Source: Methanomassiliicoccales archaeon | GTDB taxonomy: Archaea; Thermoplasmatota; Thermoplasmata; Methanomassiliicoccales; JAAEEP01 | NCBI GenBank assembly: GCA_013415695.1 | Contig: JAAEEP010000013.1 | Location: 1 to 60,728 of the forward strand | Direction of reading: 5' to 3' | DNA: 60,728 nt | Shown here: positions 22,916-32,656 of the stretch, one piece after another | Layout of the letters: each line of letters starts with the position of its first letter | Numbering within the stretch: the first letter of the stretch is position 1 | Translations under genes and position numbers: made by a program | The notes under the pieces: generated by a model | Database searches by the model: none | Seen by the model: only the letters and a program-made list of their open reading frames with translations | What the model was told of the DNA's origin: nothing

Positions 22916-25561
22916 CTATTTGAGATACTTCTCTGGATCCTCGTCAAACTTGACCTTGCACCCGTGGGCACAGAAGTAGTAGGTCTTATCCTTGTACTTC
23001 GACTTCCACTGGGCCGAGTCTTCGTCAACATCCATCTTACATACAGGGTCTACAGCCATTTTCTTGCTCCTCCTTTTACCTTTTATCTCTGGAGTGTACC
23101 TTCGAAGAAGTGCAGCGTTGGAGACTACAGATACTGATGACATTGCCATTGCGGCGGCGGCTATTATTGGGCTAAGCAGAATTTGAAAGAATGGGTACAG
23201 AACACCGGCAGCAATGGGAATGCCAGCACTGTTGTAAGCGAAAGCCCAGAATAGGTTCTGCCTGATCTTCGTCATGGTCCTCTTTGAGAGCTGAATCGCC
23301 GCTACAACATCCCTCAGGTCGTCCTTTATGAGGACAATGTCTCCTGTCTCGACGGCCACGTCCGTTCCGCTCCCTATCGCTATACCAATATCGGCCTGGG
23401 CAAGAGCTGGTGCATCGTTTATCCCATCCCCGACCATGGCCACGACGTGACCCTTCTCCTGGAGCTTCAGGATCTCTCCAGCCTTGTCCTGGGGATAAAC
23501 CTCTGCCAACACATCATCGATGCCCACCGAGTCAGCGATTGTCCTGGCAGTCCTCCAGTTATCACCCGTGAGCATGATGACCTTGATCCCCATGCTCTTC
23601 AGCTCGTTGACGGCCTCCATTGAACCCTCTTTCACCACATCTGCCACACCAAGGACGCCTTTTGGTCTCCCAGCTTCTGAGATGATCATGACGGTTCTGC
23701 CGTTCTCTTCAAGCCTTAGAACCTCATTCTCCATCGGTCCCAGTGGGATTCCATATTCTTCCATCAACCGTCGGTTTCCCAGCAATACCTCTGAATCTCC
23801 CACCTTGGCTTTCACACCCCTCCCTGGTAGATTGGTGAAGTCGAAAGCATCGGGCACCTCGATGCCCATCTCGGCCGATTTTCGAAGAACAGCCTCTCCA
23901 AGCACATGGCCGGAACCCTTCTCCACAGCGCTGGCGAGTTCAATCAATTCTCTGTCTCTGATATCGTTTGGGATGATGTCTGTGACGACGGGCTCTCCCT
24001 TGGTGATCGTTCCAGTCTTGTCGAAGATCAAAGTGTCGATACGACCTGCCAATTCCAGAGCCTCTCCACTCTTGATCAAGATTCCATTCTCGGCACCCTT
24101 TCCGGTTCCCACCATTATAGCCGTGGGGGTCGCCAAACCCAAGGCACATGGACAGGCTATCACCAGTACTGTTATGAATATGGTGAGGGAGAAGACGAAC
24201 CTGGGAGTCTCTATGAAGAAGAAGTCGTAGCCGGCCAAGTACCATACCAAGAAGGAGACAATCGCAATGAGGATGACCACCGGAACGAAGTAAGCCGCAA
24301 CCCTATCAGCAACTCTCTGAATGGGAGCTTTCGTGCTCTGTGCATCCTCCACAAGCTTGATTATCTGGGCGAGGGCCGTGTCCTTTCCCACTCGGGTTGT
24401 TCGGACCTTCAGAACACCGTTCTGGTTGATCGTGGCTCCCACGACATCGTCTTCGACTCCCTTCTCCACCGGTATGCTCTCCCCAGTGATCATGCTTTCA
24501 TCCACGGATGAGTGTCCTTCGATCACCTGACCGTCGGCGGGAACCTTCTCTCCAGGCCTGACCATGAAAACGTCACCGACTTCTAGGTCTTCGACTGGAA
24601 CTTCCATCTCCTCACCGTCCCTGAGCACGGTGGCGGTCTTCGCCTGAAGACCTATGAGTTTCCTGATGGCCTCCGATGTGCTCCCCTTCGCCCTGGCTTC
24701 CAGGTACTTTCCCAGGAGTATCAACGATATGATGAGGGCAGAGGTGTCATAGTATACATTTGGAAAGGCCACTGCTCCGGGGAAGAACGTCACGGCCACA
24801 CTATAGATGTAAGCGGCTGATGTACCGGTCGCGATCAAGGTATCCATGTTGGCGGTCTTGTTTTTGAGGGCCTTCCAAGTTCCAATGTAGAACTGATATC
24901 CAGCGACGAATTGGACAGGTGTGGCCAGCAGGAATAGGACCACATTTCCAAATTCTCCTATGAAGTGGGCATCTCCCAGAGCTGTGAACTCGAAAAGCAT
25001 TGAGAAGACGAAAGTCGGAATGCTGAATACCAAGCTGAAGATCAGCATGTTCTTCTGGCGGATCATGATCCGCTTTCTTTCCATCCTCTCACTGTCAACA
25101 GTCTCAGTCTCAATGACCTCGTATCCAGCAGCTTTAATGGCTCTCTTCATCTCCGCAATGGTCACGGTTCCCGGATCATAATTGACCCGCACCTTCTCCG
25201 TTGCAAGGTTGACGACGGCTTCGTTCACCCCTTCAAGCGAGAGCAGGGCCTTTTCCACGGTCTGGGTGCAAGAAGCGCATGTCATTCCACCCACGGAGAT
25301 GGTGACTTGATCCTCGGTGACGCCGTATCCTGCCTCGACTATGGATTCTTTCAGTTGTCTTGCGGAAACCAGGTCCGGGTCGTACACCACCGACGCCTTC
25401 TCTGTGGCGAGGTTGACAGAGGCATTATCCACGCCTTTGAGGTCCACTAGCGATCGCTGGACTGTGTCCACACAGGAAGCGCAGGTCATTCCGGTTATAC
25501 CGAAAGAAGCCTTTTTCTTCTCTTTTTCTTTCTTTCCCTCGCTGTTCAAGGCCTCTGTCAT
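22916..25561 (-). CDS. copA: copper-exporting P1B-type ATPase with C-terminal YHS domain
   Basis: 881 residues. Two HMA metal-binding domains ([11 protein letters not shown] at about 23, [11 protein letters not shown] at about 92) are followed by membrane helices. The CPC metal site in [13 protein letters not shown] is at about 470, phosphorylation DKTGTIT at about 513, then MLTGDN and [12 protein letters not shown]. The last 45 residues form a YHS/TRASH-like tail with VDPVCKMDV and YFCAHGC, an extra metal site. The protein should export Cu(I) (or Ag) from the cytoplasm. It is divergent from a regulator that also ends in a TRASH-type metal domain. Confidence 0.95.
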
Positions 25562-25709
25562 CCTGAAAGATTCAGATTAAGACCTAATTGAAACTTTTCA
25601 TGAACGTTGTCTCTTTGGTAATTATGCGTCAATCAGAAGATATTGGAGGCTAGGAATGTTAAACCTTGTAATCTGTTCGGGGAAAAAAGTTAGCATACAG
25701 TGGAAAAAT

Positions 25710-25718
25710 CTATATTTA
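25710..25718 (+). promoter_or_regulatory. TATA box of the Lrp-TRASH regulator
   Basis: TATATTTAT centred about 26 bases before the ATG at 25740. It makes the transcript leaderless and rules out the in-frame start at 25656, which lies upstream of the promoter. Confidence 0.5.
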
Positions 25719-25739
25719 TCGGGGTTCAATGTTCCCTCC

Positions 25740-26339
25740 ATGAATTTGGACGGCACGGACGTCAACATTTTGAAGGTTCTTCAGACCAACGGTAGGCTGT
25801 CCTTCCGTCAGATATCTGAAAGGGTCAAGGTGAGCGTTCCAACAGTGAGTAACAAGATCTCTAATATGGAAAATCTTGGTGTAATCAAGGGTTACCAGGC
25901 GGATCTTGATACCGAAAGGTTGGGGGAAATCAGTGTCATACTGACCATTAAGGCCAAGCCGTCCGAACTTAGGCAGGTGGCTGAATATTTCAATGAGGAC
26001 GAAAGAGTAAGGAAGATCTTCGTTCTCAGCAGTGGCCGACTTCTGATGGTATGTACATTCACCGAGTCACACAGAATCAACGAATTTGTCAGTCAGCTCG
26101 GTAACTTCTCCGAGATCATGGAGTATGATATAGCCAACATTGTGAGCGTGGTTAAGGAGAACCATAGAGCCTTGGTAGAGATGGGTGCATCGGTCATCCT
26201 CCAATGCGCCCAATGCAAGAAGGATATCTGGGAGGAAGCGATAAAGATCAAGATCGATGGGAAGGACCATTATCTCTGTGGTAATGAATGCGCCAAGTCA
26301 TTCCAGGAGAAGCAGGAAAGAGGACGAGCCAAGGCTTGA
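25740..26339 (+). CDS. Lrp/AsnC regulator with C-terminal TRASH metal domain
   Basis: 199 residues from the ATG at 25740. The N-terminal winged HTH has DVNILKVLQTNGRLSFRQIS and VSVPTVSNKISNME. A RAM-like centre follows. The C-terminal TRASH-type motif is CAQCKKDIWEE ... YLCGNECAKSF (about residues 160-190), a Cys cluster that binds metal in archaeal copper regulators. It lies 178 bp from the divergent copA, so copper-responsive control of copA is the likely job. Its stop is 2 bases from the convergent ridA stop. Confidence 0.9.
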   Translation: MNLDGTDVNILKVLQTNGRLSFRQISERVKVSVPTVSNKISNMENLGVIKGYQADLDTERLGEISVILTIKAKPSELRQVAEYFNEDERVRKIFVLSSGRLLMVCTFTESHRINEFVSQLGNFSEIMEYDIANIVSVVKENHRALVEMGASVILQCAQCKKDIWEEAIKIKIDGKDHYLCGNECAKSFQEKQERGRAKA

Positions 26340-27778: not shown

Positions 27779-27869
27779 TACCCTCCCCCTAACGAAGTCA
27801 ATGGACCTTTCGAATCGGGAATTAAGATATTTCCATGATTAATATAAAAGGATACGTACCCTCGATGGA

Positions 27870-28100
27870 TCAACCATCGATGGATCTGAACCCCCGGGCG
27901 GTCTCCCTTAAACCATCCTCAATTGAGGTGGCGAGATCGAAGTCCAGCAACTTCTTGGAATCACTGGCATCCGTGGTATGGTCGATACCGTATGGCTAGA
28001 CCACGAGTCAGTAGATCAGGGTTTCATTATCTTCTCGTTTCAGTGCCTGGACTACATGCTCTCCAAGAAACCCAGACACCCCCATGATAAATGCCCTCAA
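27870..28100 (-). pseudogene. remnant of an NAD-dependent epimerase/dehydratase
   Basis: Reading the minus strand in one frame gives an N-terminal Rossmann motif (MGVSGFLGEHVVQAL) and, after two in-frame stops, a typical C-terminal end of SDR sugar epimerases (DSKKLLDFDLATSIEDGLRE). The roughly 200-residue middle is missing. The simplest history is an internal deletion followed by point mutations. It fills most of the gap between the RAM gene and the octapeptide gene. Confidence 0.65.
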
Positions 28101-28241
28101 TCATTACTCCAGAGGTCCGCTATAATTCGTCAACGATAGATTAGAAAAAGGATTATTCTATAAAATCAAAGTGGATGCACAATATTTAGATGATGGCGGG
28201 AGCCAGATAATTTCTCTATTTGATAATATTTAAAATTAACT

Positions 28242-28254
28242 GTAGCATGCTCAA
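28242..28254 (+). promoter_or_regulatory. shared upstream element GTAGCATGCTCAA, copy 1
   Basis: GTAGCATGCTCAA, with an AGCATGCT palindrome inside, starts 21 bases before the TATA sequence TTTATAT (28263-28269) of the octapeptide gene. The same 13 bases occur at 31404-31416, 19 bases before the TATA box of a DUF835 gene. The position matches an archaeal activator site just upstream of BRE/TATA. Confidence 0.6.
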
Positions 28255-28312
28255 ACACCTTTTTTATATCTACATTGCGAAAACTGGAATAAAGAGACTT
28301 AAAGTGATTGCG

Positions 28313-28618
28313 ATGAAGAAGACAACAGCCGCTGTGATTGCCACCTTCGCGCTTTTCCTTGCGGCCTCGGGACTTATTGTCTCGGGGTCCCTTGCTTTCG
28401 GTTTTCCGGGAGCAACGGATGCCACAATGGACGACACTCAGGTTATACCCGGAAACTCTCCCCATGTCATACCTGGTAATTCTCCACACGTAATACCCGG
28501 CAATTCGCCTCATTCCATTGTGGATGTGACTTCCCTAGTAATCCCTGGGAACAGCCCCCATGGATGGACTTGGACGGACTGCCTTTCATATGTGATTCCT
28601 GGCAACTCTCCTCATTAA
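28313..28618 (+). CDS. secreted small protein with five VIPGNSPH octapeptide repeats
   Basis: 101 residues from the ATG at 28313; the upstream in-frame start at 28220 lies before the promoter. An N-terminal signal peptide (MKKTTAAV plus a hydrophobic stretch to about residue 33) predicts export. The rest is mainly exact repeats of VIPGNSPH at residues 44-51, 52-59, 60-67, 76-83 and 94-101, the last ending at the stop codon. Spacers are 8 and 10 residues. The repeats differ in codons at every residue yet are identical in protein, so the octapeptide itself is under selection. It could be a peptide precursor, a surface anchor or a metal binder; no family is recognised. Confidence 0.75.
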   Translation: MKKTTAAVIATFALFLAASGLIVSGSLAFGFPGATDATMDDTQVIPGNSPHVIPGNSPHVIPGNSPHSIVDVTSLVIPGNSPHGWTWTDCLSYVIPGNSPH

Positions 28619-28667: not shown

Positions 28668-31358
28668 TCAGGGTGCTATGATCTCTAATGTTTGCACGAG
28701 ATCCCTTGTCAGATTTTCATGCTTCATTTTGGTGGCTATGTCCAAAGCTTCCTCGAAGAGCATGATGGCCTCCTTCTCATCGTTGTTCTCCAGGTAAACC
28801 TGACCTATCTCATATAACCAGTAACTCAGTTTGATAGGGACACCCAGCTTCCTAAGGATGGTGAGGCTTGTCTGAAACTCGTCCTTTGCCCATTCCCAAT
28901 CGTTCTTCTTTGAATAGAGGTAGCCCCGGTACAGATGCATCGTGGATACCATTATTCTGTCATCTAGCTTTGAGAAGATATCTGAAGCCCTGTCGATCAA
29001 TTCCTCGCTCTCGCCAAGAACTCCCATCTCCAGGTAGGAAGCGGCTGCATTGGAAAAGGCATAACCAAGTGTAATAAGGTCCCCTACGGACTGGGCGAGG
29101 TTTATTGCTTTTTCCTGGTACTTCAGGGAGTTGTCCATGTCTCCCAATGCTCTAAGATCGTTACCTAGGCTGGTACTCACCTTGGCAATCTCATTGGCAT
29201 CACCGATTTTCTCTAAAACTAACAAAGCTTCCTTCTTGAACTTGATGGCCGTTTCATAATCGAGAAGATTCTCGTAGACCCTGCCAATTCCATATAAGGC
29301 CTTTCCTTCTCCCATCTCCTCACCGATAGAATGGGCTAATTCTCTTGATCTGTTGAAAAATTCAATGGCCAGGTCATTCTCCCCGATGCGTTCATGAAGC
29401 CCACCCATATCATAGAAGATATCCACAAGGGTGTGAACGTCATCACCCTCTTCAGCCAGCCTTCGCCCCTCTTGGAGGTACGTACTAGCCTGGGCGAATT
29501 CCCCTCTTCGGAGCATTATGGACCCCACCCTCCTATTGACATCTGCAATTATCCTTCTGTCTCGTTCTGCTGAGGCCAGTTTCAGGATCTCCTGGAAGTG
29601 ATGAACGGCCTCATCCCAGTCCCCCTGTATGTCCCGAATCTGCCCCCTCAGGGTCAGAAGTTCCATTCGATCATCAGGTGATACATCATGGCAGGTCTCG
29701 AGCACCTGCCCGACAAGAGGGGCGAATGGTGCTGCGTAGCCCTTGGCTATTATCATCCTGCCGTGGGCGGCAGCTATGCGTATGGCCTTCTCTTCATCCC
29801 CAGCACTCAGGCTGTGATAGAGAGCCTCAACGTAGGCAGGTACTGATGAGTCCTCAAGGTAGAAGCTGGACGCGGCTCGGTGAAGTGCGATTCGTTGCTT
29901 CGGCCTCAGTCGAGAGTAGAAGAACTCACGGACGAGGTCGTGCATTCCGATCAGCCTTCCTATCGCCTCCTGGAGCAGCGATTTGGACAGTAGCCCATCT
30001 AAGGTATCGTAATCCACCATGTAGTCCTCATAGCTCATGTCCTGAGTCCGTCTGCCACCATCCTTCTCCAGCTCTTCTTCCATGATGAAGAAGGCATCCA
30101 CAAGGACGGGATAACGGAACACACTAGCTATCTCCAGGATCCTCCTTTCAGTGAGATCAAGCTTGGAGTAGACCTCATGCTCAATGAACATTCGAACGTC
30201 TTTCCCAAGGTAACTTTGCGGATCATCGATGAGCTGGAGGAAGAGCGGGTGTCCGTTGGTGGCATTGTATATGGCCTCAATGGCCTTCTCGTGTATCGAT
30301 CTCCCTGAGAGCATCTTGCCCGCGCTATCCCTGTCTAGGCCATGCAGGTTCATCTCCTCTATGATTCCTGTGACCACCTCGCTTCTATTGTAGAAGGTAG
30401 GGATTTCACGACTGGCTACTATAATTCTCACTCTCTCTAGAGGGGTCAATACTGCAATGAGGGCGCTAAGGAATTCAAGGACGGGAGGCTCGGATTTCTG
30501 GATATCGTCCACGATTAAGAGGATCTCCGATTCAGCAAGATCGCTCTCGAGTATTGCACAGACCTCCCCCACCTTTGGAATCTCAGTCTGAGCGAGATAT
30601 CTCTCCAATCCCTTTCTACCCAGGTGTGAGAGGAACTCTGCTAAGGGTCCCAGGAGTATCTTGAGGGTTATCCACTCGTGGACCTTATACCAGAATAGGT
30701 TGGTGGAATCCCTGATCTCCTGTGCGAATTTGGCTAGGAGGGTGGTCTTTCCGATCCCTGCGATTCCATGGACCACAAGCAGTCTCTCAGTCTCCGAATT
30801 CATGAATTCTTGGAGCCTCTTGATTTCTTGAGTCCTTCCAAAGAATGTTCTGACGGCTGGTTTGCGATCTGAATAATCGACGTACCTTCTCTCTTCCTTA
30901 ATCTTTCCTTCATGGAACGCAGAACAGTTGAAGACTCCCCTTTCTACTCCTGAAGCCAGTTCTACAAGTGAGTAGCTCCTGGGAAGGTAAAGGTTAAGGC
31001 GGCCAACATCCTCCTCCCTTTCCACCCCATCGAAATCGATAATCCTGACGCGGATCGATTCGATATCCTCTTTGAGGGCCAAGCCCTCCTGAAATCCCAG
31101 GTGACTCAGGAAGTAGACATTGCGTACCCTTTGCAGACCTTTGATGTGCTTCACCTGAACCTCGATGAGGTCGTCCTTGACGAGTTCATTGAGGAATCTC
31201 GAAACATTGTTCCTACCTACCCCGACAGCTTCGGCTACCCCATCCTGAGTCACAGCCTCTGGGGATGCCGAATCCTGAAGATATCTATGGTGGCTCAGGA
31301 GATGAAGAATGATCTTCTCCTTGGATGTGAGAAGATTCTTCCTGGTCCGCCGGGTCAC
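28668..31358 (-). CDS. wHTH-STAND ATPase-TPR regulator
   Basis: 896 residues. The N-terminal winged HTH (about 10-75: DGVAEAVGVGRNNVSRFLNE) is MarR/IclR-like. A linker leads to a STAND/NB-ARC ATPase with Walker A HGIAGIGKTTLL (198-209) and Walker B EILLIVDDIQ (about 272). From about residue 560 to the end there are TPR repeats, for example ALYGIGRVYENLLDYETAI. STAND-TPR proteins are switches that oligomerise after the TPR part binds a ligand or partner. It starts with GTG at 31358 and is divergent from a DUF835 gene whose promoter carries the element shared with the octapeptide gene. Ligand unknown. Confidence 0.88.
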   Translation of the reverse strand: MTRRTRKNLLTSKEKIILHLLSHHRYLQDSASPEAVTQDGVAEAVGVGRNNVSRFLNELVKDDLIEVQVKHIKGLQRVRNVYFLSHLGFQEGLALKEDIESIRVRIIDFDGVEREEDVGRLNLYLPRSYSLVELASGVERGVFNCSAFHEGKIKEERRYVDYSDRKPAVRTFFGRTQEIKRLQEFMNSETERLLVVHGIAGIGKTTLLAKFAQEIRDSTNLFWYKVHEWITLKILLGPLAEFLSHLGRKGLERYLAQTEIPKVGEVCAILESDLAESEILLIVDDIQKSEPPVLEFLSALIAVLTPLERVRIIVASREIPTFYNRSEVVTGIIEEMNLHGLDRDSAGKMLSGRSIHEKAIEAIYNATNGHPLFLQLIDDPQSYLGKDVRMFIEHEVYSKLDLTERRILEIASVFRYPVLVDAFFIMEEELEKDGGRRTQDMSYEDYMVDYDTLDGLLSKSLLQEAIGRLIGMHDLVREFFYSRLRPKQRIALHRAASSFYLEDSSVPAYVEALYHSLSAGDEEKAIRIAAAHGRMIIAKGYAAPFAPLVGQVLETCHDVSPDDRMELLTLRGQIRDIQGDWDEAVHHFQEILKLASAERDRRIIADVNRRVGSIMLRRGEFAQASTYLQEGRRLAEEGDDVHTLVDIFYDMGGLHERIGENDLAIEFFNRSRELAHSIGEEMGEGKALYGIGRVYENLLDYETAIKFKKEALLVLEKIGDANEIAKVSTSLGNDLRALGDMDNSLKYQEKAINLAQSVGDLITLGYAFSNAAASYLEMGVLGESEELIDRASDIFSKLDDRIMVSTMHLYRGYLYSKKNDWEWAKDEFQTSLTILRKLGVPIKLSYWLYEIGQVYLENNDEKEAIMLFEEALDIATKMKHENLTRDLVQTLEIIAP

Positions 31359-31403: not shown

Positions 31404-31416
31404 GTAGCATGCTCAA
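31404..31416 (+). promoter_or_regulatory. shared upstream element GTAGCATGCTCAA, copy 2
   Basis: Exact 13-base match to 28242-28254, here 19 bases upstream of TTTATATA (31423-31430). It lies in the divergent gap between the STAND-TPR regulator and the DUF835 gene, the usual place for a regulator's own binding site. Confidence 0.6.
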
Positions 31417-31471
31417 CACGGTTTTATATACCGTTAAAGCGGAATTGAGTCCTAAGACGGAGGAATTTGGA

Positions 31472-32056
31472 ATGGTTTCAGAAGGTATCACCTCTAAGAT
31501 ATCCCTGCTTACCGAAAGCTACCCCAGATATGGATTTGATGCTCTTTCGATGCTCATCAATACCGGATGGGATGCACTCTGCATCACTCGTCTGCATCCG
31601 GATTATATCACCAAGAAGTTCGGACTCAACAACATAAAATGTCAATGGTTGAGTACTCGCAAAGGAAAGGATATAATCTCACCAAAGTCCATGGGACAGC
31701 TGGTCAAGGCAGTAAAGGCTTCCTTGAAGAAGAGTGATTGCACCATCATTTTCCTAGATGGACTGGAGTACCTGCTGATGTGGAATGACATGAGCAAGGT
31801 GATCTCCACTTTAAGGGAGATAGACTCGGTACTAAGAAACAAGACCGCTGAGATGCTAATATGCATAGATCCTTTGACCCTGGAACAGAGGGATCTTGAC
31901 AGATTGTTCTCGGAGTTCCCCCAGCACTCTGCTACCGAGGTGGTGGAAATTCTCACTACCGAACTACCTCAGCAAATCGACGAAGCCTTGCCAGGGACCG
32001 CTGATCGAACGATCGGGGATCTACTGAGATTAGGAGAATTGCATGCAATTCCATGA
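31472..32056 (+). CDS. DUF835 family protein 1
   Basis: 194 residues from the ATG at 31472 (ACGGAGG ahead); the longer frame from 31409 begins inside the promoter element. The DUF835 core is seen in ALCITRLHPDYITKKFG, KCQWLST and TIIFLDGLEYLLMWND (about residues 90-105), a layout like a degenerate P-loop or RecA-type fold. DUF835 proteins are common in Thermoplasmatota and often accompany regulators or sensors. It is divergent from the STAND-TPR gene. Its last 101 bases overlap the tail of another DUF835 gene on the other strand. Confidence 0.85.
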   Translation: MVSEGITSKISLLTESYPRYGFDALSMLINTGWDALCITRLHPDYITKKFGLNNIKCQWLSTRKGKDIISPKSMGQLVKAVKASLKKSDCTIIFLDGLEYLLMWNDMSKVISTLREIDSVLRNKTAEMLICIDPLTLEQRDLDRLFSEFPQHSATEVVEILTTELPQQIDEALPGTADRTIGDLLRLGELHAIP

Positions 32057-32501
32057 CCAGGTCGTTCAGTTCCTCTACGAACCTGAGAAGCTTAGAGAAG
32101 TCATTGAAGAGTGAGAGGTATTCAATACCGTCAAGCATCACCACGCCGTTTCCTCCGTCACTGAGGAACGATGCTATTTTGCTTCTCAAGCGGGAAAGTT
32201 GGTGCGCCGGGATATTGCTCTCTCCGTGTCGCTCGCTGAGCCAGACCGACTTGAAGTCCCCAGTAACCCACATTCCCTGAACGATCTCAGGATGGTATCG
32301 GGATATACACAACATTTTACGACCCGTTGAGACGAAGTCACGGGCTATCGAAAAAGCTCTATCTGATCTTGGATTGAGAATGAGATAGATTCGGCCTAGG
32401 TCGAATGCATAGACGTCATTGTTTACACTGACATTGATGGATTCAACTCTTTGACATTCGGTCCTAGCGGCCATTGTCATTTTTGTATCACCACCATCCA
32501 T
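31956..32501 (-). CDS. DUF835 family protein 2
   Basis: 181 residues from the ATG at 32501; ATGs at 32480 and 32474, which have GGTGGTGAT ahead, are also possible. A TATA-like CTTTAATAG lies about 45-55 bases upstream. The core mirrors its neighbour: MLCISRYHPEIVQGMW, SVWLSERHG, GVVMLDGIEYLSLFNDFSK and LLISVDPRSFDQRSL. The two genes converge with a 101-base overlap of coding sequence. Function unknown. Confidence 0.83.
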   Translation of the reverse strand: MDGGDTKMTMAARTECQRVESINVSVNNDVYAFDLGRIYLILNPRSDRAFSIARDFVSTGRKMLCISRYHPEIVQGMWVTGDFKSVWLSERHGESNIPAHQLSRLRSKIASFLSDGGNGVVMLDGIEYLSLFNDFSKLLRFVEELNDLVMELHAILLISVDPRSFDQRSLARLRRFAEVVR

Positions 32502-32656
32502 GTCTTTTTTGGTATCCAAGACGCTGGGCTGGCTACGATATGAATCTATTAAAGCTTTTCCAAACAATCATTTACGCATGTCTTTAAGTGGATATGCCCA
32601 AAAATATCCAGACTGAGAATCTCTCTGCATAATGATAATGTCAATCCGATGAATCT

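Follow-up and report, generated by a model that had tools for sequence, protein, structure and literature searches.

A short gene with repeated octapeptide units beside a STAND-TPR regulator in Methanomassiliicoccales: a candidate peptide signalling module

Introduction

Why does a short archaeal gene encode the octapeptide VIPGNSPH five times over in different codons, and what is the function of the large gene that converges on it? The gene, here called PEP, lies in a stretch of 60,728 nucleotides of a Methanomassiliicoccales genome (the window). The source genome is mcrA-positive, and mcrA itself lies inside the window. The convergent gene is called REG.

Peptide quorum sensing of the RRNPP(A) type (Rap/Phr, NprR, PlcR, PrgX, Rgg, AimR/AimP, AloR) is described in Gram-positive bacteria and phages; mature peptides of 5-10 aa are imported by the oligopeptide permease and act in species- or strain-specific pairs (PMC7425212, PMC12700828). 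Signals proposed for Archaea include the carboxyl-AHLs of FilI from Methanosaeta harundinacea, AI-2, LuxR solos and diketopiperazine-like compounds (PMC3991700, PMC10223598). The archaeal signals in the literature searched are thus small molecules, and peptide signalling through TPR receptors is described for Gram-positives and phages. The original prediction knew of no described archaeal family like PEP, and no published counterpart was found in the open-access literature searched, where no such archaeal system is described; this does not by itself establish novelty.

Results and discussion

The PEP gene and selection on its unit

The features of the locus are listed in Table 1. The translation of PEP reads MKKTTAAVIATFALFLAASGLIVSGSLAFGFPGATDATMDDTQ(VIPGNSPH)x3 SIVDVTSL(VIPGNSPH)GWTWTDCLSY(VIPGNSPH)-stop, with unit-to-unit spacings of 8, 8, 16 and 18 residues, and matched no family in Pfam, NCBIfam or PADLOC. 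Signal peptides were called by inspection of the sequence only, so that secretion is a sequence-based judgement here and throughout; signal-peptide character is kept across the PEP orthologues, with the exception of G033.

Table 1. Features of the PEP-REG locus and its neighbours (window positions)
Feature	Position	Strand	Basis or remark
CopA, syntenic neighbour	22916-25561		Pfam and synteny
Lrp-TRASH, syntenic neighbour	25656-26339		Pfam and synteny
Element GTAGCATGCTC of the PEP promoter, palindromic core AGCATGCT	28242..28252	+	Genome scan; orthologue upstream regions
TATA-like TTTTTTATAT, 7 bp past the element	28260..28269	+	Sequence; similar spacing in orthologues
PEP, putative secreted multicopy peptide precursor, 101 aa	28313..28618	+	Translation; 34 genomes of the order have an orthologue at the equivalent place
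PEP N-terminal signal peptide or hydrophobic segment (predicted)	28313..28402	+	Sequence: basic n-region and about 20 hydrophobic residues; cleavage site undetermined
PEP unit 1, VIPGNSPH	28442..28465	+	Codon comparison
PEP unit 2, VIPGNSPH	28466..28489	+	Codon comparison
PEP unit 3, VIPGNSPH	28490..28513	+	Codon comparison
PEP unit 4, VIPGNSPH	28538..28561	+	Codon comparison
PEP unit 5, VIPGNSPH, the C-terminal end	28592..28615	+	Codon comparison
REG, 896 aa, convergent to PEP (49-bp gap)	28668..31358	-	Pfam, AlphaFold, Foldseek, PDB profile search, co-occurrence
Second copy of GTAGCATGCTC, divergent REG/DUF835a intergenic region	31404..31414	+	Genome scan
TATA-like TTTTATAT past the second element, directed at DUF835a	31422..31429	+	Sequence
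DUF835a (ORF open from 31409)	31472..32056	+	Pfam; orthologues in exactly the 31 genomes of REG
DUF835b, 101-bp tail-to-tail overlap with DUF835a	31956..32567	-	Pfam; block member in most genomes

The five DNA copies of the unit are all distinct, with at least two codons at each of the eight residues (Ser is encoded by TCT, TCG or AGC) and no residue change. At least 17 changes separate the copies, and all are synonymous, for about 6.2 synonymous and 17.8 non-synonymous sites (P ~1e-10 under neutrality). The eight genes with at least four units, window PEP included, together hold at least 99 inter-copy changes, again all synonymous. Copies for this test were gathered as exact units and the result is conditional on that, but window PEP has no further copies. 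Departures from the exact unit were found elsewhere: position 1 is variable in G008, G024 and G030, one core change (IPGDDPH) occurs in G004, and G020 has degenerate copies. Some arrays were recently expanded (G028, G003 and G009, the last with 12 copies in two alternating DNA forms); others are old, with synonymous sites near saturation (G000, G036, G046, G054). Purifying selection maintains the octapeptide in window PEP and in many orthologues. Since the spacers are free in length (8, 8, 16 and 18 aa here; 16, 26 and 19 in family f5) and the copy number ranges from 1 to 12, it is the unit that is conserved and not a regular fold.

PEP orthologues in the order

Short, secreted-looking ORFs with related units were found in related genomes by a search of 61. 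Each carries 1-12 copies, and the unit is species-specific: IIPGIDPH x4-12, GIPGNDPH x4, YIPMSDPH x4, IPVNDPH x4, IIPGLEPH x5, TIPLIDPH x6, AIPGVDPH, NIPGIDPI x5, IIPGTDPH x7, SIPFLDPH x1 or x2, AIPFIDPH x5-6, SIPLLDPH x4, IPMLDPH x2 and GLPGMTPH (period 11; G003). The core is nearly always uniform inside one gene, and changes between species fall mostly at the two residues following the first Pro. The NIPGIDPI units (G054, L021) have no His in any copy; a lone unit occurs as well (L098; G019, a 45-aa protein). The record of RumEn M1 carries IIPGLEPH.

A search of genome contigs with the single PEP protein gave no match, and a degenerate tandem DNA pattern for IPxx[DE]PH was used instead. Scanned over 84,980 species genomes, it gave 18 matches, 17 of them in Methanomassiliicoccales or 'Euryarchaeota' MAGs (several belonging to the order); the remaining one, in Streptosporangium, is probably due to chance. 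The repeat itself goes well past anything that chance would produce. The single match in a scan of viral genomes, a biased-composition ORF without the family features, also appears to be a chance hit, and the P0001 matches at G001 and other weak spots were set aside as chance alignments. The G008 row of one DNA alignment, drawn from incorrect coordinates, was excluded.

The original prediction, made without database searches, held on each point that these data address. It had described a signal peptide (still supported by sequence only) followed by five exact VIPGNSPH copies, the last at the C-terminus, with differing codons and no differing amino acid, and had taken selection on the octapeptide as the natural reading. 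The search that it proposed with VIPGNSPH-type patterns found orthologues, and PEP is not an orphan. Absence of any orthologue together with broken frames in close relatives would have refuted it, and this was not the case; a single frameshift was seen. This one-base frameshift lies in the fourth IIPGTDPH copy of G015 (L003/L096), a single-contig genome, and may be an assembly error, decay or phase variation. At the PEP position of G033 (L092), a PLPGVGPV x7 gene was observed, with the promoter element described below but no obvious signal peptide and a unit unlike IPxxDPH.

Synteny and joint loss of the locus

The block PEP - REG - DUF835a - DUF835b is flanked by HAD/RidA/CopA and by asparaginase/TrpB throughout the order, and PEP adjoins REG in all genomes of the order with continuous contigs. 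A single-copy REG orthologue is present in 31 of the 61 genomes (32 of 147 across the whole order), and DUF835a has orthologues in the identical 31. In six genomes (G005, G021, G042, G051, G045, G060) the block is cleanly missing and HAD lies directly next to TrpB or asparaginase; HAD is retained in most block-less genomes, CopA is also retained without the module, and DUF835b is the only block gene left in G017. Species with and without REG stand side by side in genus g13 and in families f3 and f6, which requires several separate losses (or gains). PEP, REG and DUF835 have been lost jointly in several lineages. The genomes are related, and Fisher values therefore overstate their independence.

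Two further features of the locus were noted. The tail-to-tail overlap of DUF835a and DUF835b (window 31956-32056) is exactly 101 bp in several species (L076, L077 and others). What appears to be a relic of an NAD-dependent epimerase gene (MxxxTGASGFLG type) was read by eye on the reverse strand at window 27860-28110; family f5 (L076, L077, L078) has an intact epimerase gene in the interval from HAD to PEP.

A shared promoter element

The sequence upstream of PEP reads TAGCATGCTCAA..AC...TTTTATAT. The element, summarised as TAGCATGCTC followed by a TATA-like box, is palindromic, almost unique in the genome and common to the PEP promoter and the REG/DUF835 intergenic region. The source genome, of 1.99 Mb, has only three copies of GTAGCATGCTC: one precedes PEP, one lies between REG and DUF835a, and one precedes an adenylate-kinase-like gene. 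Across the order, AGCATGCTC precedes every PEP for which upstream sequence is available, and lies in the REG/DUF835a intergenic region of 32 of 32 loci.

The extended pattern AGCATGCTC-n5-12-TTTTAW was found in 31 of the 61 genomes, its reversed control never. The table of REG against this motif reads 29/2/2/28; among the four mismatches, the motif is at a contig end in G003 and G056, REG is at a contig start in G058, and G027 has a TATA variant. The last does have AGCATGCTC before its peptide gene, and it was the TATA part of the pattern that missed it. Among 400 genomes of the class, the extended pattern occurred in 22 of 98 within the order vs 1 of 302 outside.

The third copy (G000:C5:87181; L042, L110) precedes the adenylate-kinase-like gene, and orthologues of this gene bear the element in four other genomes (L108, L109, L111, L112); these four loci were located by the motif, and the sample is therefore ascertained. 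In two species of one genus (G040:C4, G037:C4; L113, L114) a AGCATGCTC element was also seen before a gene starting MVEEFKPVLSPIVN.

Architecture of REG and co-variation with the unit

REG consists of a winged helix-turn-helix (wHTH, residues ~1-100), a STAND/AAA ATPase (~171-374) and a TPR array (~556-896, window 28671-29693), with Pfam matches to AAA_16 (PF13191), ATPase_2 (PF01637) and TPR_12, and TPR_MalT slightly under its cut-off. No strong transmembrane segment was found. The AlphaFold model has a mean pLDDT of 79 (about 90 in the TPRs). The nearest solved structure, best in both Foldseek and the PDB profile search, was the STAND-TPR protein PH0952 (6mfv). It was followed by peptide-bound LGN and by Rap with its pheromone, which matched the REG TPRs (TM ~0.7 on target for Rap-peptide); this likeness to Rap and LGN is largely generic TPR similarity. 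REG did not meet the cut-offs of the curated MalT model (PRK04841; 38.1 of 537 bits) or of AfsR (50.9 of 1430 bits). An anti-phage STAND system of the Avs type was also considered and rejected: the matches are partial (ATPase/TPR), the N-terminus is a winged helix, and there is no nuclease or protease.

In partial Mantel tests, unit distance tracked TPR distance given the ATPase, wHTH, arm, HAD, DUF835a or DUF835b (r 0.32-0.52, p=0.0005). The reverse partials given the TPRs were small (-0.06 to 0.11; for HAD, DUF835a and DUF835b, which were tested, p 0.23-0.36). HAD is as diverged as the TPR domain (0.573 vs 0.578), so that speed of divergence alone does not explain the correlation. The unit thus co-varies with the TPR domain of REG, with the reservation that Mantel tests correct for shared ancestry only partly.

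A proposed signalling module

Secreted-looking multicopy genes with lineage-specific units, an adjacent single-copy REG and a shared element are conserved. The reading that we favour, with moderate confidence, is that PEP yields a secreted peptide signal in multiple copies and that REG, as a STAND-TPR regulator, senses it; processing, import, binding and autoinduction are all inferred. PEP would be exported via its predicted signal peptide and its identical units (here VIPGNSPH) freed as short peptides by proteolysis, with true termini that are undetermined. The peptide would re-enter cells, probably by an oligopeptide ABC transporter. REG, a cytosolic STAND ATPase whose N-terminus forms a winged helix, would bind the peptide through its TPR sensor, although there are no binding data. 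By analogy with MalT, peptide-bound REG would multimerise, and it may then act at the palindromic TAGCATGCTC before PEP, REG/DUF835a and the adenylate-kinase-like gene; binding of REG to this DNA is inferred. The outcome would be an autoregulated, density- or self-dependent switch; its regulatory sign and the part that DUF835 plays in it are likewise inferred.

PF00496, a family of oligopeptide-binding proteins, occurs in 29 of 31 genomes with REG vs 6 of 30 without. The two REG-bearing genomes that lack it are 67% and 79% complete, and one of the six REG-less genomes that have it is G003, where the peptide gene is at a contig end. No linked protease was found at the locus, and the units have no classical (dibasic) flanking cleavage sites. 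The repeat gene of G033, having no obvious signal peptide, counts against the module reading.

The original prediction had offered three options: a precursor of many copies of one peptide, a repetitive surface ligand and a metal-binding repeat. The multicopy precursor fits best because of the copy number of 1-12, variable spacers, species-specific unit, synteny, co-loss, shared promoter element and co-variation with the TPR regulator. The surface ligand is not excluded; the metal-binding repeat is disfavoured by the His-less NIPGIDPI orthologue (L021) and the single unit of L098.

The alternative that remains possible makes PEP the target of REG and not its ligand: an unprocessed, anchored or secreted surface protein with repeats that bind a partner (an adhesin, or a mineral or polymer binder), while REG may sense another inducer and control PEP and DUF835a via the shared element. 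This accounts for the shared element and the joint loss and needs neither processing nor import; small-molecule sensing is known in STAND-TPR proteins, MalT among them (PMC6468293), and the hydrophobic N-terminus of PEP might remain as an anchor. Against it, divergence of the unit tracks the TPR sensor and not the DNA-binding, ATPase or neighbour proteins, a single unit suffices in the small G019 protein, and outside the order (see below) the REG-adjacent protein is quite different in sequence yet the arrangement persists. It is unlikely that the units are a species-specific, archaeocin-like antimicrobial for which REG/DUF835 provide regulation or immunity. A short, secreted, multicopy and fast-diversifying peptide beside a regulator would suit such a role; however, the 8-mers are Pro-rich and non-amphipathic, the block has no transporter or immunity-type membrane gene, the gene is a single core-locus gene over distant families and not a patchy strain-level trait, and the element also precedes the adenylate-kinase-like gene.

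Copper handling or other metal binding by the repeats would draw on the one His per VIPGNSPH unit and on the syntenic CopA and Lrp-TRASH, but is very improbable: the NIPGIDPI units of G054 have no His, Asp is replaced by Ser in the window unit, the G003 unit is GLPGMTPH, CopA is retained in module-less genomes, and the promoter element is common to REG/DUF835a and the kinase gene. Two further readings can be all but ruled out: a structural repeat, e.g. an octapeptide beta-helix like that of gp5, and neutral expansion of the repeats. The former has in its favour a weak match to octapeptide repeats of the T4 gp5 type (phmmer, E=0.35) and the latter the recent expansion of some arrays (G009, G028); yet spacings of 18, 19 and 26 aa are not multiples of 8, one or two units are enough, and all-synonymous divergence rejects neutrality. 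On unit spacing and the synonymous pattern, both were rejected for the window gene.

The peptide signalling module, as we prefer to read the locus, resembles RRNPP(A) systems in that a small precursor of the Sec type (secretion again being judged from sequence) adjoins a cytosolic TPR receptor or regulator. It differs in the receptor, since REG has ~900 aa and a STAND/AAA ATPase between the wHTH and the TPRs, whereas RRNPP(A) receptors have 5 or 9 TPRs, an optional N-terminal HTH and no NTPase, a definition that REG does not meet. It also differs in its multicopy precursor, its convergent gene order with a shared palindromic element, and its host, a methanogenic (mcrA-bearing) archaeon and not a Gram-positive or a phage. 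We regard it as an analogue of RRNPP quorum sensing and not a member, an analogy in which permease import and TPR binding are indirectly inferred. REG shares the AAA/STAND core and TPR sensor of MalT and PH0952 and so belongs with them by architecture, PH0952 (6mfv, PMC6468293) being its best match. The winged helix of REG is N-terminal, whereas MalT has a C-terminal LuxR-type HTH; MalT, moreover, responds to maltotriose. PMC6468293 mentions no peptide partner for PH0952. Fungal Kex2-processed repeat proteins and the yeast alpha-factor precursor are likewise secreted precursors that contain one peptide several times over (PMC7329392), but PEP has no dibasic sites of the Kex2 type and the fungal route is the eukaryotic secretory one. 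The alpha-factor receptor is a GPCR. The quorum sensing described in Archaea has proposed cell-cell signals in common with the module, but these are small molecules and not ribosomal peptides, and no parts are homologous to PEP or REG.

If the module reading is true, peptide communication in Archaea would be opened to direct test with synthetic octapeptides, an inducer would be at hand for a protein of the STAND-TPR class, to which MalT and structural relatives of NLRs belong, and there would be handles for perturbing methylotrophic methanogens, e.g. RumEn M1 (IIPGLEPH).

REG homologues outside the order

Homologues of REG (24-33% identity over most of the length) were found in 80 of 302 other genomes of the class at E<=1e-50. 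The 79 REG-type genes with enough 3' sequence were compared with 156 controls, other genes taken from these loci. A convergent ORF that encodes an N-terminal hydrophobic segment and lies ~60 bp or less from the REG stop was present in 20/79 vs 14/156 (p=0.0014); the scan detected none at the other 59 of the 79. Internal repeats within the convergent ORF were found in 8/79 vs 0/156 (p=1e-4), and GAGCATGCTC upstream of it in 8/79 vs 0/156 (p=1e-4).

Eight genomes of family f18 have C-terminal repeats unlike IPxxDPH (GPHPxD..W), such as DDPPLDYDYA x2, TGPKPPLDGWDW, GPHPADNYAW x2 and DGPHPTDPD[AI]W x2, and in seven of the eight the perfect palindrome GAGCATGCTC lies upstream. It precedes both genes in L134, and in L129 both promoters share ACACATGTGT in its place. 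The f18 palindromes and the promoters of L134 and L129 indicate that element and arrangement persist, or shift jointly, despite a complete change of peptide. The evidence leans, if not strongly, toward a bolder reading: an archaeal form of ribosomal peptide signalling, independent of RRNPP, with fast-changing multicopy peptide/STAND-TPR pairs across the class, in convergent order and under a GAGCATGCTC-type operator.

At five loci outside the order (L129, L136, L137, L138, L154), the convergent, secreted-looking ORF was seen to carry a DxDGDGLPDxWE (calcium-binding-like) motif and a Pro-rich tail, without tandem units. In f18 loci L147, L156, L172, L174, L205 and L206, the palindrome separates the peptide gene from a divergent response-regulator-like start (MxVLVVDDS-like), as read by eye.
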